The translations under genes and the position numbers were made by a program. A stretch of DNA of 5,733 nucleotides from an uncultured Ruminococcus sp. (GTDB lineage: Bacteria > Bacillota > Clostridia > Oscillospirales > Ruminococcaceae): positions 1 to 5,733 of the forward strand of contig UQEM01000150.1 in the NCBI GenBank assembly GCA_900540005.1. Direction: 5' to 3'. Below, one piece after another: positions 1-5,733 of the stretch (position 1 is the first letter of the stretch; each line of letters begins with the position of its first letter). The notes beneath the pieces were generated by a model. That model was not told the DNA's origin. It saw nothing but the letters and a program-made list of their open reading frames with translations, and searched no databases.

Positions 1-474
1 CTTGTAAAGAAAGGCGTTATTTCTCAGGAAGAAAAGACAGGCAATGTGCTTTTCAAATATTTCGATACAGACGGAAAAGTTATCGGTGCTGAAAAGGTCG
101 GCACTTCCACGGAGCATAAATTCAAAGGCATTGCAACAGGCTCGGTTGGCGGTCACGGCTTTGAGGTAGTACGCGGCACCGGAGAAAAGGCTTTTTTCTT
201 TGAGTCGGCAATAGATATGCTTTCATATCTGCAAATGCACAGCAAAGAGCTTGATAATTGCAGGCTTGTTTCCATGATGGGCGTGAAGCCAAGTATCGTC
301 CTTGATACGATGCTCCGTCATAATATCGCTGCTGAGAACGTATTTTTATGCTCCGATAACGATACGGCAGGCAATGAATTTGCCCAGCGTTTGCAGGAGC
401 AGTATCCCGATATGAAGCGTATCATCACTCCAGATACATATAAAGACTGGAATGATATGCTCAGGGGTATTCCA
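1..474 (+). other. DUF3991 tail plus Toprim_2 primase-type domain
   Basis: The first 55 codons fit the C-terminal part of DUF3991: a short VKKGVISQ segment, then strands ending in a glycine-rich turn. The Toprim fold follows, with its conserved glutamate in FFFESAID (Glu codon at 202-204) and the metal-binding DxD as SDNDTAG (Asp codons at 355 and 361). The KDWND box at 442-456, typical of the end of this family, is present. Toprim domains of DnaG-like primases and topoisomerases bind divalent metal for phosphodiester chemistry, and all the expected acidic residues are here, so activity is plausible. The usual upstream part, a zinc-finger-like N-terminus in many DUF3991 proteins, lies outside the window. 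Confidence 0.85.
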
Positions 475-3400
475 AAAGTTGTAGAACAAGAGACTGAAAA
501 GAAGGAGGTTGACAGCATGGCTGACCTTATTACATACGGCAACCAAATGTGGCACAAGGCAACAGATAACAGAGATAAGAGCCTTGTGACGATTCAGGCT
601 TCGGATTTTGCAAGATTGCAGGAACAGCTTGATAATTCGGGCATTAACTACTATGCCTATGCCCGTGATAATTCCGTCATTATGGCGATCAATGATAAAG
701 ATGTGGAGTGGTTCAGGCAGATTGCAGGCACTCCCGATCTTGTACCGAACAAATCAAACAGACCATATTCTCCGCCCGAAAAAAACATCTTCGGTTCAAC
801 AGAGTATCGCTATATTCCGCAGAAAGAGTATCTTTCGGCTGACCGTGATTTAGTCCTGAAAATGGCTGAGATCATGTCAAAGCGCAGTATGCAGTTTTCG
901 GGCAGAGTCTATCCGTCCGGCAAGGGTACGCTGACGGTATCTCACGCTGACCTCTTTGCTGTCCGCAACATCAGGGACGAAGTTGTGAATATGCGTAATC
1001 AGTTTGCAAGTACCGATAAGGCGCAGGAAGTCGGCAACCGTGACTATCGTGCGAACCGTGATACCCATTATTATATGAGCAAGCTCACACCCGAACAGTT
1101 CGGAAAGGTCAAGCCTTTCCTCGAAACAAGTGTGAGCTATCATGCTGTTGTCCGTGACGGCAAGGTCGCTTTTGCGGTGGATAAAGAGAACGCTCCTGCA
1201 TTTCACAGGGCTTTGGAAAACGCTGTCCGTGAGGTAGATATGCTCAGGAGTATGGCTGACCTCGGTTTGCCTATGGAGCAGAATGTGGCACTCTCTCCCG
1301 TGGTTCATCGCCTTGCGGTGGAAGATGTAAAGCTCGATCTTGCTGACTTTTTCGATAATCGTTATGATGATGCACAGTTCGGTGAAATGCTCTCTCTTGT
1401 TAATGCGTATCTGTCACAAGCTCTTTCGGAGCGTTACGGCGAACACTCCAAGCTCCATGATATGCTTGAAGCAAAGTCGAGTTTTGACCGCAGTATTGAG
1501 CTTTCTGACTTCTTTTCTCAGCACGATTTCTCCGATGGACAAAGGGCGGCTATTACCGCTATGTTTGTCGGTGATGTGACGAGAGGTCAGATCGACAGCA
1601 TTGACGAGACTTTCACGGCTGAGGATATTCAGGCGTATGACGAGATTCTGCATAACGCTTTGCAGGAATCCGATGTAGCTGACTTTCTGACTGCCCATAA
1701 GCAGGCAGTTATTGACCGTGAGAATGCAAGCAGAGTTCCGACTGAGGAAGAAGTGCTGTTCCCGAAGGCTGACCTTGCGAAATTCCTTGCGGAGCGCACT
1801 CTTTCTTCTGATGAGTGGGAGGATATGGCGTATCCGCTGTTTGACAGCGGTTATCTTGATAAGCATAAGCCCAGCGACAAGGCTGCTTTCGGCTATCATC
1901 TTTCTGAGCCTGCGCTTTATGACCTCGCCCAGCGTTATCATGACGGAGAGGATATTCGCCGTGAGCTTGCTCTCGGACTTTTAGAGGGCAGTGGGGCCGC
2001 AGATATTGAGTTTATCTTTGAACAGGGTGAGATCTCAGACCGTACCTATTATTATGCTGAAAACCTCCGCCACTCCCTGCATACGGAGAGGACTGAGGAC
2101 GGTTTCAAGTGCAGTTTCGGCGGTATGGAACGTTTTGTTTCCTTTGAGGAAATCGGACAGGCTTTCATTGACCGTATCCATGAGGAATTTGACGATCTCG
2201 CTTTCTGGTGGGTTCGTGACGATTTGCAGGAGGCTGTTCCTGACATTTCCGATGAAAGGATCAGTGATCTTCTCACTGCATTTGACGGTGCTGCTATGGC
2301 TGATTGGGAAAAGGGAGATAACCGTTCGAAGCTCAACCGTATCAAAAAGGCTCTCTATGATATTCTCGGTGATGAAGTGCAGACCGAAAACGCTTTTGCT
2401 ATCATCGCAAAGAAAAAGTATAATGTTACTTTTGAGCCTGAAAGAAAGCCCGACAGCCTTGAATTTCAATTCGGCTATTCTAAGGACGGCAATGACCGCT
2501 GGTTTACCGAAAGCGGTCTGCTGAGTGACTTTGCGGAAGAACACGGCGAGATCAGCTTTGCGCTTGCAAATGCTCTTATGGAGTATCTTGACGATAAACA
2601 GCATAAGGAGCGTATGATCCCCGACCTTAATGCAGGCTACTACAAGAAAACAAACTTTGAGATCAGGGCTGTTGTGGACGGACAGGAGTTCAATTTCTCC
2701 AATAGGTTTGATATCGGTGACGGCAAGGGTTCGGGCGGTGGAAGTCTCATTGACCATATCCGCACTATCTGTGAAAATGCCGTAGCTTCGACGAATTATC
2801 CCTACAATACACCTGAAAGCAAGGAAACTCCCCGAAATATGCTGAATGTTCTTGTTCCTTATCTGGAATTCCATTCTGCGCTTACCGCTGAGGAACAGAA
2901 GATACTTGACGATTTCAAAGAGAAAAATCCTATCCGCACCATTGATGATGTGGAAAAGGCACAGGGTAAGTTTCAGATCTATCAGCTTCCCAGCGGTGAC
3001 GAATATCACGGTGTCCGCTTTGAGAGTATGGACAGGCTGAAAGCTGACGGCGTACAGCTCAACAAGGACGATTATGCGCTTGTCTATGAGGGAGAAGTCG
3101 GAGAGTTCAGGGGCAATGCTACGCTTGAAGCCCTCTATACGCAGTTCAATATTGATCACCCCGAAGATTTCCGTGGTCATTCGCTTTCTGTAAGCGATGT
3201 GATCGTCATTTCCGTCGACGGCAAGGATACAGCGTATTTCTGTGACAGCTTCGGCTTTACCGAAATGCCTGAGTTCTTCCGTGAAAAGGAGCTTGTGCAG
3301 GAGAAGCCCGAAACTGCAAAGGTGTCCGATCTTGCTGTCGGTGATATTATAATGTATGACGGCGCTCGTCGTGAGGTCGAGAAGATCAGCGACAAGAGCA

Positions 3401-3822
3401 TTTCCCTGAAAGACCTTGATGCACCCAATTACGGCGGTATTCTGCTCGGCACTTCCGATGTGCTTGCCTATGACGGCTGGCAGCAGGATATGGAGGAAAA
3501 GGGCTTTGAAATTCTGTCTAAGGCTGAAAAACCTGCGGTCGAAGCTCCTGAAAAGGCAGAGCCGGAGGACAAAGGTTCGGTATCACTCTGCAAGGTCGGT
3601 GACTTTTACGAGATGTACGGCAAAAATGCAGAGATCGGTGCAGAAGTCCTCGGACTGCGTATGCTGTCAAAGAACGGTTCTCCTATGGTTGGTTTTCCCG
3701 ATCATGTTAAGGACGAATACTCTGCGAAGCTCCGTGAAGCAGGATATACCGTCCTGATCGAACAGGCATTTGAGCTGAACCCTCCGAAGCGTGAGGCTGA
3801 GAAGCTCCAGACATTACAGTAG
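1..3822 (+). CDS. Large polyvalent mobile-element protein, DUF3991/Toprim-YodL-MutS-I, 5'-partial, ends at in-frame TAG
   Basis: The frame is open from base 1 to the TAG at 3820-3822 (1273 codons). The start is upstream: the first 15 codons already fit a DUF3991 domain, and the GTG at 46 lacks a good ribosome-binding site, so it is not the real start. Modules in order: DUF3991 tail and Toprim (codons 1-158), two alpha/beta modules (195-241 and 361-409), helical region (441-573), an unnamed stretch (581-988), a YodL-like domain (990-1093), a VGD module (1107-1172), a Pro/Glu/Lys linker, and a MutS domain-I-like module (1194-1256). I see no signal peptide or membrane segment, so it should be cytoplasmic. 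This fits the large multidomain proteins of Firmicute conjugative elements, which are proposed to act on transferred DNA and counter host defences. The Toprim and MutS-I calls rest on visible motifs; the overall role is inferred from family context. The same frame stays coding after the TAG, so this is probably a truncated product of a longer gene. Confidence 0.85.
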   Translation, partial: LVKKGVISQEEKTGNVLFKYFDTDGKVIGAEKVGTSTEHKFKGIATGSVGGHGFEVVRGTGEKAFFFESAIDMLSYLQMHSKELDNCRLVSMMGVKPSIVLDTMLRHNIAAENVFLCSDNDTAGNEFAQRLQEQYPDMKRIITPDTYKDWNDMLRGIPKVVEQETEKKEVDSMADLITYGNQMWHKATDNRDKSLVTIQASDFARLQEQLDNSGINYYAYARDNSVIMAINDKDVEWFRQIAGTPDLVPNKSNRPYSPPEKNIFGSTEYRYIPQKEYLSADRDLVLKMAEIMSKRSMQFSGRVYPSGKGTLTVSHADLFAVRNIRDEVVNMRNQFASTDKAQEVGNRDYRANRDTHYYMSKLTPEQFGKVKPFLETSVSYHAVVRDGKVAFAVDKENAPAFHRALENAVREVDMLRSMADLGLPMEQNVALSPVVHRLAVEDVKLDLADFFDNRYDDAQFGEMLSLVNAYLSQALSERYGEHSKLHDMLEAKSSFDRSIELSDFFSQHDFSDGQRAAITAMFVGDVTRGQIDSIDETFTAEDIQAYDEILHNALQESDVADFLTAHKQAVIDRENASRVPTEEEVLFPKADLAKFLAERTLSSDEWEDMAYPLFDSGYLDKHKPSDKAAFGYHLSEPALYDLAQRYHDGEDIRRELALGLLEGSGAADIEFIFEQGEISDRTYYYAENLRHSLHTERTEDGFKCSFGGMERFVSFEEIGQAFIDRIHEEFDDLAFWWVRDDLQEAVPDISDERISDLLTAFDGAAMADWEKGDNRSKLNRIKKALYDILGDEVQTENAFAIIAKKKYNVTFEPERKPDSLEFQFGYSKDGNDRWFTESGLLSDFAEEHGEISFALANALMEYLDDKQHKERMIPDLNAGYYKKTNFEIRAVVDGQEFNFSNRFDIGDGKGSGGGSLIDHIRTICENAVASTNYPYNTPESKETPRNMLNVLVPYLEFHSALTAEEQKILDDFKEKNPIRTIDDVEKAQGKFQIYQLPSGDEYHGVRFESMDRLKADGVQLNKDDYALVYEGEVGEFRGNATLEALYTQFNIDHPEDFRGHSLSVSDVIVISVDGKDTAYFCDSFGFTEMPEFFREKELVQEKPETAKVSDLAVGDIIMYDGARREVEKISDKSISLKDLDAPNYGGILLGTSDVLAYDGWQQDMEEKGFEILSKAEKPAVEAPEKAEPEDKGSVSLCKVGDFYEMYGKNAEIGAEVLGLRMLSKNGSPMVGFPDHVKDEYSAKLREAGYTVLIEQAFELNPPKREAEKLQTLQ
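502..519 (+). promoter_or_regulatory. Internal Shine-Dalgarno and possible in-frame start at ATG 517
   Basis: AAGGAGG at 502-508 lies 8 nt before an in-frame ATG at 517-519, close to an ideal Firmicute ribosome-binding site. It lies in a Lys/Glu linker (KKEVDS) about 14 codons after the end of the Toprim domain. Starting here would give a Toprim-less protein of 1101 residues up to the TAG, beginning MADLITYGNQ. The match could be chance, because Lys-Glu-Val codons produce this sequence easily. Confidence 0.5.
583..723 (+). other. Alpha/beta module, copy 1
   Basis: The translated segment runs as a strand, a helix (SDFARLQEQLDNSG), two short strands around YAYARDNSVIMAI, and a second helix (DVEWFRQI). 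It matches the spacing of a second segment at 1081-1227: a DF or QF helix start, a serine at the helix end, an aromatic-x-A-x-x-RD turn, a V-x-x-A-[IV] strand, then a helix with an aromatic residue. The fold resembles small alpha/beta modules of conjugative-element proteins. No function can be assigned. Confidence 0.5.
1081..1227 (+). other. Alpha/beta module, copy 2
   Basis: This segment contains TPEQFGKVKPFLETS, YHAVVRDGKVAFAV and an ending helix APAFHRALENA. It lines up with 583-723 with at most a one-residue gap and shares the RD turn and the strand after it. Divergence is high, so the duplication is old. The 120 codons between the copies (724-1080) hold a helix-rich stretch and a GKGTLTVSHADL segment that I cannot name. 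Confidence 0.5.
1321..1720 (+). other. Acidic helical region with a mobile-element type helical repeat
   Basis: This stretch is predicted helical by composition. At 1528-1665 it shows the pattern F-x-x-x-Q-R-x-x-I followed by G-x-x-x-x-Q-I-D and then a T-x-E-x-I-Q-x-Y helix. That is the spacing of the short helical repeats (FxxxQMxxIxxG, then LxxEQV) common in large conjugative-element proteins. It is probably a protein-protein scaffold. The repeat match is by eye and only one full unit is clear. Confidence 0.4.
1741..2965 (+). other. Unnamed multi-module stretch of the large protein
   Basis: About 408 codons with no motif I can name. Visible parts are: a segment rich in aromatics and acids (AFGYHLSEPALYDLAQ, about 1882-1932, and FEEIGQAFIDRIHEEFDDLA, about 2143-2202); a helical block around SKLNRIKKALYDILGD (2326-2373); a strand-rich block from 2419 to 2720; a glycine-rich loop (GDGKGSGGG, 2716-2742); and a closing helical block to about 2925. 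It resembles accessory 'large polyvalent associated' domains in style. The catalytic status is unknown. Confidence 0.45.
2968..3279 (+). other. YodL-like domain
   Basis: The domain opens with KFQIYQLPSG and R-F-E-S-M-D-R-L, continues with ALVYEGEV, then TLEALYTQFNIDHPEDFRGH, SLSVSDVIVI and a closing DSFGFTEMPEFF. These blocks in this order are the hallmark of the YodL-like domain that recurs in proteins of Firmicute conjugative elements. Its biochemical role is not established. The domain looks complete. Confidence 0.8.
3319..3516 (+). other. Small VGD module, copy 1
   Basis: A predicted beta-rich segment opening with DLAVGDIIMYDG, then EVEKIS, and closing with GFEIL before a Pro/Glu/Lys linker. 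The arrangement (VGD, EV-x-x-IS, acidic middle, a TSDVLAYD-like strand, aromatic-E-I/Y end, linker) recurs at 5254-5445. Its function is unknown; it could be a small barrel used as a binding module. Confidence 0.45.
3523..3579 (+). other. Pro/Glu/Lys-rich linker
   Basis: Low-complexity AEKPAVEAPEKAEPEDKG joins the VGD module to the MutS-I-like module. It is probably disordered. A compositionally similar linker follows the second VGD module at 5446-5526. Confidence 0.7.
3580..3768 (+). other. MutS domain I-like (mismatch-recognition) module
   Basis: The order CKVGDFYEMYGKNAEI, AEVLGLRMLSKNG, SPMVGFPDHVKDEY, AKLREAGYTVLIEQ follows MutS domain I block by block. The Phe-x-Glu that contacts the mismatched base in MutS (F36 and E38 in E. 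coli) is present as GDFYE, with Phe at 3604-3606 and Glu at 3610-3612. The connector, lever, clamp and ATPase domains of MutS are absent from the window, so this is not a mismatch-repair MutS. In MutS, domain I binds DNA. Here that activity is inferred only from the kept residues. Confidence 0.8.
3820..3822 (+). other. In-frame amber codon interrupting the large gene
   Basis: The codons around the stop read CTC CAG ACA TTA CAG TAG GTC GTT GAC AAG (LQTLQ-stop-VVDK). It is the only stop in the 1911 codons of frame 1. The flanking codon is CAG and the local sequence is glutamine-rich, so a C-to-T transition of CAG is the simplest origin. I see no classical readthrough context such as CARYYA directly after the stop, no slippery heptamer just before it, and no Shine-Dalgarno with a start just after it. 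Confidence 0.95.
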
Positions 3823-4479
3823 GTCGTTGACAAGTTCTTCGGCACTGACTGCGAGTCTGCGGAAACTGAGGGCGGCACATGGAAACTGGCTATCGCTGAC
3901 GGTGATAAGGTCGGTGAACTGTTTTACGGCGGCGAACCTGTCTGCGGTATCTATAACCGTGGCGATAAAATGGAGATCGAGCCGTACCGTGAGCTGTCCA
4001 CATTCCTGAAGCTCCTGCAAACTGCAATGCTTGAACATAATCCCGATAAGCCTGTGGAGATCATGGATTTTCAGCGTACCTTTGAAACTCCGCTTGACAA
4101 GGCAAAGTCGCTTATCAACGACTTCTGTGAAGCGGAATACCGTCAGGGTGCTGATTTTGATGATCTGCACAATGTCGGTCTTGCGTTTACCACGCTGACC
4201 GATGATGAGCTGCCGATTCAGGTAACGGCTGACCTTGTGGACTTCAAAATCACCTATGAATTTGACGGCGAGGTTTATAATACGGAGCAGTATGATAATA
4301 TCGAGGATATGATCGAGAACGGTCTGACGGGGCTTGATTTCTCTGACCTTGTTTCCGTTCCCGATGATGTTATCGACAGGCATAAAAGCAAGGACGAACA
4401 GACGGTAGAGCTTATGAGCGATGCTTCTGAGGTTCAGGATATTTCTTCTGTGGAAGATGTGCCTGCGGTCACGCTGAAA

Positions 4480-4640
4480 TATAAGGGTGATGCTGAAAGC
4501 CTTGACGAGATCAAAGACAAGGCACTTTCCCTCGGTGCTACGGTTATTATCGACAATGCCGATGGTGTTATCTCTATCGACACCTATGAAAACCACAATG
4601 CAGAGCTTGACGGTCTTGCTTATGAGCTGGGCGTTATGGC
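4480..4640 (+). other. Possible third alpha/beta module
   Basis: The segment reads as a strand (TLKYKG), a helix (LDEIKDKALSLGA), two strands (TVIIDNADGVISI) and a second helix (ELDGLAYELGV). The topology matches the modules at 583-723 and 1081-1227, but without the RD turn. Shared ancestry is only a suggestion. Confidence 0.3.
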
Positions 4641-4791
4641 GGTCGATGATGCTCCTGCGGTGGAGACTCCAACTGCGGAGACTGAGGCCATTGACCGTCC
4701 TCTCTTTACGGACGCAGCGGTCATTGACGAAATTCAGCGTAATGAAAATGCTGATGTTCCGTTTTGGGAAATGCCCGAAGCACAGGGTGAA

Positions 4792-4806
4792 CAGCTCTCT
4801 CTTTTC
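4792..4806 (+). other. Candidate sliding-clamp (DnaN) binding motif QLSLF
   Basis: The codons CAG CTC TCT CTT TTC encode QLSLF, an exact match to the bacterial beta-clamp pentapeptide consensus QL[SD]LF. It lies in an acidic linker (4650-4905) and is followed by a Pro/Lys-rich stretch, so it should be exposed. Clamp-binding motifs of replication and repair proteins usually sit in such flexible segments. It lies after the TAG, so it would be present only if translation continues past the stop. Confidence 0.6.
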
Positions 4807-4905
4807 GGTGATCCCGAACCGCTGACCACTTCTAAGCCTGCGCCCGAAAAGCCGAAGTCTGAATTTGCCAAAGGTCCGGTGGTTGACGGTGTTCAGGTCT
4901 ATGAA

Positions 4906-5250
4906 GCACTTGCCGCCGAGATTGACCGTGGTACTGGCTTTGTTCACGGAAAACTCCGTGTGCAGGACTTTTACGAGGAAAAGCACTCGACTATCCAGCA
5001 GTTAGCCGATTTTCTGAAAAAGGAATACGGCACGGGCGGTCACAGCGGTGAGGGCAAGATCTCACTCGTTGACTATAATTCTCAGGGTATTACTTTCAGC
5101 TTTGAGAATGGTGAGAAGTTCCGTCATTCGTGGTACAATGTCGCAACAATGACAGAATCACGGCTCAGGGACGATACATACCTTTCTGCCGAACAGAAAG
5201 CAGAGAGGGCGGCGCTCAAAGCAGAGCAGTCCGCTGAGAAACAGTCTCCC
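4906..5250 (+). other. GTGGHSG module and Glu/Lys/Ala-rich helix
   Basis: The segment has a helix ending in a QQLADFLKKEYGTGGHSG junction, then KISLVDYNSQGITFSFENG and a W-x-x-V-A-x-M strand-helix (SWYNVATM). It ends in a Tyr-Leu and a charged helix (SAEQKAERAALKAEQSAEK). This pattern of a glycine-rich turn, a D-x-x-x-x-G-I strand and a W-x-x-V-A helix recurs in large conjugative-element proteins, often ahead of a helicase part. Its activity is unknown, and no helicase motif is visible before the window ends. Confidence 0.6.
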
Positions 5251-5253
5251 CAT

Positions 5254-5445
5254 ACCGTCGAGGTTGGAGACCGATTTCGTCACAAGATTACTGGCGAAGT
5301 TTCTGAGGTTATTTCGCTGACAGGCGCACTTCCGTTCTATTCGGACGATTGCACCATTCAGCGTGAAAGCAGCGGTTTTGCTGTGACGGAGAATATCTCA
5401 TACGATAAGCTCCTGAACAGCGGTATGTATGAGTATATCGGCAAG
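5254..5445 (+). other. Small VGD module, copy 2
   Basis: Opens with TVEVGDRFRHKITG, continues with EVSEVISLTG and an acidic, Ser-rich middle, and closes with NISYDKLLNSGMYEYIG before a Pro/Glu/Lys linker. The order of blocks parallels 3319-3516. Sequence identity is low, so the relation is a proposal. Confidence 0.45.
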
Positions 5446-5526
5446 GCTGAACCAGAAAAGGAGCAGTCTGCACCCGTGAAGCCCGAAAAGGCAGAGGTCA
5501 CACCCGATAAACCTGAAATTCCAACG
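5446..5526 (+). other. Second Pro/Glu/Lys-rich linker
   Basis: Translates to a low-complexity stretch of AEPEK, VKPEKAE and TPDKPEIP units, compositionally like the linker at 3523-3579. It is probably disordered and joins the second VGD module to the next domain. Confidence 0.7.
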
Positions 5527-5532
5527 GTCAAG

Positions 5533-5733
5533 AACCTGTCTCAGCTCAAAAAGGCTATTCAGCCGGGTATGATGTTTGAAATCAGCGATCATCTCCGTCC
5601 TGAATGTATCGGAGAGTGCAGAATCGTCACGGGTGTAAGCACCGTTGATTTTACTTCCCGAAAGCTCGATGAAAACGGCAAACCTACGGGCAAAGACCTC
5701 CACATGGAGTTTGACCGTGCGAAGAACTGGACT
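5533..5733 (+). other. Start of another small domain, cut by the window edge
   Basis: Reads LSQLKKAIQPGMMFEI, then HLRPECIGECRIVTGVSTVDFTSRKL and a closing MEFDRAKNW, where the window ends. The opening helix and P-G-M-x-F-E strand suggest a small beta-rich module of the VGD kind. I do not recognise a named family. It contains two cysteines (PEC and GEC), too few to call a metal site. Confidence 0.4.

Follow-up and report, generated by a model that had tools for sequence, protein, structure and literature searches.

Ordinary nonsense mutations and pseudogenes in mobile elements are a known phenomenon. For the gene considered here, the closest described systems are the polyvalent proteins of conjugative elements. 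In the sections of Iyer et al. (2017, PMC5512222) used here, YodL and LPD25 are among the domains exclusive to these proteins, and MutS-I is found together with ArdC-N about 80% of the time. Insertions into genes of streptococcal ICEs of the Tn5252 superfamily have also been described; according to the portions of PMC5357655 and PMC5704250 cited here, IMEs insert in traG, maff2 and snf2 of these ICEs.

We analysed a stretch of DNA of 5733 bases (the window), which corresponds to C4:94537-100269 of the assembly given as its own, G000, where it lies inside an open frame of 2229 aa (C4:94117-100806). The window gene encodes a polyvalent protein, likely one of a conjugative element in a Ruminococcus, and an in-frame TAG is found at 3820-3822. 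Very probably this TAG is a one-base nonsense difference, present in no compared record, that would end the protein of this gene, likely carried by an ICE, at residue 1413.

Domains and genomic surroundings of the gene

The features of the window are listed below with their coordinates and strand.

1..3819, + strand: open part of the polyvalent-protein gene before the TAG; the first 140 codons precede the window, as judged from G000
4..156, + strand: DUF3991 (PF13154), Pfam match, residues 2-52; partial at the window edge
196..462, + strand: Toprim_2 (PF13155), Pfam match, residues 66-154
2530..2778, + strand: LPD25 (PF18840), Pfam match, residues 844-926
2850..2850, + strand: second letter that differs between the window and G000; third codon position, silent (Val)
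2968..3276, + strand: YodL (PF14191), Pfam match, residues 990-1092
3568..3768, + strand: MutS_I (PF01624), Pfam match, residues 1190-1256; 17 codons lie between the match and the TAG
3820..3822, + strand: in-frame TAG; codon 1414 in the numbering of the G000 gene (2229 aa in G000)
3823..5733, + strand: open part of this gene after the TAG; in G000 it runs on beyond the window, and in relatives both parts form one frame
3970..3972, + strand: first in-frame ATG past the TAG; start residue of three homologous database proteins

The pieces upstream and downstream of the TAG were searched separately for domains, and the downstream piece gave no match in Pfam or NCBIfam at E 0.01. Both the window gene and its long relative in L004, a MAG contig that is nearly identical to the window and comes from roe deer cecum, combine several unrelated domains, including an LPD domain, in one very long chain; the L004 protein has 3783 aa and carries SNF2-type helicase domains. 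An ArdC-N domain, which is common but not obligatory in polyvalent proteins, was listed for neither the window gene nor L004. The neighbours of the gene on the G000 contig include the conjugation genes TrbL_2, P-loop_TraG, topoisomerase, DUF4316 and T4SS-DNA_transf (VirD4/TraG-type). Because the gene has the make-up of a polyvalent protein and lies near conjugation genes, it is likely part of a conjugative element. Fifteen proteins of this contig were scanned, the gene included, and the sole relaxase and recombinase among them sit past a cut at residue 2218 of the G000 gene and likely belong to a second element. The window ends at residue 2051 of the gene, short of this break point, and the cut at residue 2218 does not explain the TAG.

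Other searches addressed the nature of the locus. A phage gene was considered and rejected: viral_contigs contained no relative of the downstream piece, and the annotated phages gave one weak partial match to a piece of L004. The TAG pattern also had 0 matches in viral_contigs, which is uninformative on the variant because no relative of the piece is present there. Among plasmids, 12 records matched partially, at less than 60% identity and none over 80% of the query. Within the window, no Rfam match was obtained at gathering thresholds, and a tRNA search found none.

Two observations were made on related loci. L100 and L106 lie on G240:C1, the sole contig of a genome in the same family, and carry a 95% identical segment in an open frame of 2272 codons, and a MobA relaxase is located on G240:C1 about 4 kb past the end of the gene. 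In L002, the stretches L002:9078-12122 and L002:12846-14036 are candidate element cargo, which we regard as a likely assignment. They contain genes for a C5 cytosine methylase and for a PAPS-reductase-like product that matches BrxP/SspD weakly, another gene for which PADLOC gives no match, and one for an AAA_14/DUF4143 protein that hits PDC-S01 of PADLOC with 498 bits.

The stop codon in the window and in relatives

Frame +1 of the window contains exactly one stop, the TAG at 3820-3822, and is otherwise open over 1911 codons, as an earlier sequence-only reading of this DNA had noted; the remaining five frames contain 16, 49, 78, 95 and 206 stops. The same reading had ascribed the same coding character to both sides of the TAG, in agreement with the codon usage upstream and downstream, which correlates at 0.89, and with the similar GC fractions at the three codon positions (0.58/0.35/0.50 before the TAG and 0.61/0.36/0.53 after it). 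However, its statement that no new start follows was incorrect, since an in-frame ATG is present at 3970, separated from the TAG by 49 codons.

A comparison of the window with G000 revealed 2 differences in 5733 bases, at 2850 and 3820, and the window has T both times. The G000 codon at the 3820-3822 site, read directly, is glutamine, and a pattern search of G000 for the stop or the sense form found one place, in the sense form. Only 1 place in G000 holds this region, and the idea of another copy there with the stop was rejected. L004 shows 6 differences from the window in 5733 bases and has glutamine at the site. Relatives share the window's letter at 2850, and in L010 the letters around it are the same too, which fits natural variation.

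The codon at the site was compared across 23 distinct contigs, G000 included, and was CAG in 14, GAT in 8 and GAA in 1, with a stop in 0; three of these contigs (L073, L095 and L096) align at 37-41% identity only, repeats of one contig were merged by hand on contig number, equal length or stated place, with mergers across collections relying on equal length, and the count omits loci that have no readable downstream piece (e.g., L014, L018, L076-L078, L098 and L101-L105). Glutamine is the residue of the near relatives. Searches with a 201-aa segment that read through stops also failed to detect any internal stop, in 19 of 19 places from 16 matching genomes of the 125 in the genus search (17 of the places span the site) and in 8 of 8 places from 8 matching genomes of the 396 in the family search, where 4 of the 8 places reach the site and 2 of these repeat places of the genus search.

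The alignment with homologues that the sequence-only reading had recommended was carried out on 223 fetched proteins (the best 120 of 169 matches and the best 120 of 1749 matches), and the relatives continue through the site. The residue there is Q in 214, R in 3 and D in 2, and is unreadable in 4. None of the 223 terminates at the site; the length range of the 169-match search would include proteins that do so, but with both lists cut at the best 120 and the database clustered at 90% identity, a site-terminating protein could have been missed. A natural gene boundary at the TAG, with homologues that all end there and a separate gene downstream, is therefore rejected: 0 of the 223 fit this picture. 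Over the 261 residues used as query, each of the best 120 of the 1749 matches showed 100% identity. With such a wide occurrence of this segment, many sequences are available for assessing its single-letter differences.

Possible origins of the stop codon

Ordinary RF1 would be expected to terminate translation at the TAG, after residue 1413 and just past the MutS_I match, as predicted from the genetic code. The product left would comprise the DUF3991/Toprim/LPD25/YodL/MutS_I part, and the remainder would be lost. This loss of the downstream part may cost little, because the G000 gene is already cut at residue 2218 and does not have the helicase end seen in L004.

We considered whether the TAG is instead decoded as an amino acid, by a suppressor tRNA, as pyrrolysine or through TAG-to-Gln recoding. 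The glutamine carried by near relatives at the site and the frame that remains open after the TAG speak for such decoding. However, RF1 (prfA) is present in the assembly (525 bits against a cut-off of 423), and the anticodons at the 36 tRNA places scoring over the cut-off all differ from CUA; ARAGORN assigned 35 of them, and the one at a place that ARAGORN missed is GUU, as judged by eye. The tRNAs listed for the assembly include none with a His, Cys or Ile anticodon; this set is therefore incomplete, and the lack of CUA in it is no proof. Only one glutamine tRNA was seen in the assembly, with the anticodon CTG. When the tRNA search was extended to E up to 10, one extra match of 14 bits appeared, which is under the cut-off and was treated as chance. 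PylS gave 2 weak matches of 26 and 24 bits, none over the cut-off of 178, and in 14 control genomes 1 was over it. The window frame contains 67 ordinary glutamine codons (60 CAG and 7 CAA) against one TAG, which supports the earlier view that general TAG-to-Gln recoding is unlikely, and TAG is not used by the relatives at this site (0 of the 23 contigs). Amber suppression, pyrrolysine and general recoding are thus rejected on the tRNA, RF1 and PylS searches, and we regard an amino-acid reading of the TAG as highly improbable. The case serves mainly as a warning that a lone in-frame stop, when missing from the organism's own assembly and from the compared relatives, is no evidence of recoding.

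The ATG at 3970 raises the question of whether the TAG and this ATG together yield two working proteins, a Toprim/YodL/MutS_I half followed by a second half. Among 49 further proteins, P0249, P0250 and P0251 start at the residue of this ATG, and the position of the TAG just past the MutS_I match would suit such a split. However, no obvious ribosome-binding site was found by eye ahead of the ATG, the 49 intervening codons would be lost, and none of the 223 fetched proteins (best 120 of 169 and of 1749) ends at the TAG. There is accordingly only a slim chance that the split is functional. The starts of P0249-P0251 at this residue imply that those copies are interrupted somewhere before the ATG. 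P0249 is identical to the window product over 149 residues and then lacks about 450 residues; its copy could carry the same TAG, which would make the stop a shared one. P0238, partial by its source name, starts exactly at the TAG residue, with Q, and its start is probably a contig end.

The TAG likely has an ordinary cause, either a nonsense variant or an error in the sequence, and does not point to a novel use of the code; the odds that it was present in a cell, as opposed to having been introduced by sequencing, assembly or copying, are near even. The earlier reading had put forward a recent nonsense mutation or a base-call error, and both members of this pair stand. There is about an even chance of a real nonsense variant segregating within the element population. 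This reading agrees with the letter-level variation among near-identical copies, and also with the breaks of the gene at several places in other copies and the three proteins that start at ATG 3970, which suggest that the loss of parts of the gene is probably tolerated. However, none of the 23 contigs has the stop, and no fetched protein (223; best 120 of 169 and of 1749) ends there. A pure artefact, with a T at 3820 that arose in base calling, consensus building or copying and was never present in a cell, has a chance a little below even. The sense codon in the window's own assembly, where the pattern search recovered the sense form only, points in this direction, as do the 223 fetched proteins (best 120 of 169 and best 120 of 1749), none of which terminates at the site; the absence of the stop from other records would fit an error as well. 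In addition, the finding was chosen for its oddness, which favours errors. Against an artefact, the other differing letter, at 2850, is silent and present in relatives such as L010, and near-identical copies do vary, as shown by the 6 differences from L004. The window frame offers 1269 possible C-to-T changes, 70 of which create a stop, and one stop in two such changes is therefore unremarkable (about 11%). Taken as a whole, the sequence-only reading was right about the single stop and about the low likelihood of general TAG-to-Gln recoding, and its mutation-or-error explanation stands, but its suggestion of suppression by an amber suppressor tRNA found no support in the assembly.

Breaks elsewhere in the gene and comparison with known systems

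The G000 copy parts from the L004 protein (3783 aa) at residue 2218; next comes a gene for a large serine recombinase, and a MobA relaxase gene is close by. The part of L004 that is missing from G000 includes the SNF2-type helicase domains. The L004 stretch just past residue 2218 looks methylase-like by eye, and no methylase family is listed for L004; PF07669, which we take to be an Eco57I-type methylase, is carried by four related proteins among the matches listed (best 120 of 169). G000 (L022 = G000:C4:91300-107283, with the gene end near L022:9472) and L012 (at L012:6140) share both the cut at residue 2218 and the foreign tail after it, and 31 fetched proteins leave L004 at this residue, 28 with one tail and 3 with a near variant. 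The serine recombinases past the cut in G000 and L012 are 99% identical. The break at residue 2218 likely reflects the insertion of an IME at a fixed site.

Other copies of the gene end elsewhere. At residue 2311 of L004, 54 fetched proteins depart (e.g., P0001), among which 49 share a single identical tail of 33 residues, and another 5 depart at residue 2933, the same place as the break in L009. In L009 (Ruminococcus albus AR67), the gene ends at 2934, in what is presumably the GK motif of the helicase. The region at this break, L009:10587-13335, has RF02004 and RF00029 matches and encodes a 633-aa reverse transcriptase, suggesting that the interruption is likely a group II intron. The copies at L007:11205, L013:11415, L017:11205 and L005:10774 end near residue 3147 of L004 with closely similar tails, and in L007, L013 and L017, the three with the next gene scanned, this next gene encodes a 517-aa serine recombinase on the opposite strand. 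The comparison of gene ends covered 12 loci: the frames of L004 and L019 extend to about 3785 codons, the L016 gene ends near residue 3043, the L010 and L011 frames run off their loci, and L014 yielded no frame. That one giant gene breaks repeatedly at fixed positions next to other mobile DNA is of greater interest than the TAG. A narrow literature look-up on such insertions gave papers on Streptococcus suis or its resistance genes and none mentioning Ruminococcus, and we make no claim as to whether they have appeared in print.

The TAG itself, a one-letter stop in an otherwise open gene that the compared relatives lack, looks like the ordinary nonsense mutations and pseudogenes of mobile elements. 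The gene has the same multi-domain chain as the polyvalent proteins of conjugative elements in the cited sections of PMC5512222, with Toprim, YodL, LPD25 and MutS-I, and with the helicase in L004. It differs from them in that ArdC-N is not listed here and in that the window copy carries a stop. The break in G000 is similar to the Tn5252-superfamily IME insertions described in the cited portions of PMC5357655 and PMC5704250, in that the gene is cut beside a large serine recombinase with a MobA relaxase near. Unlike those IMEs, however, the G000 cut lies in a polyvalent gene of a Ruminococcus, in the part before the helicase, a part that looks methylase-like by eye.
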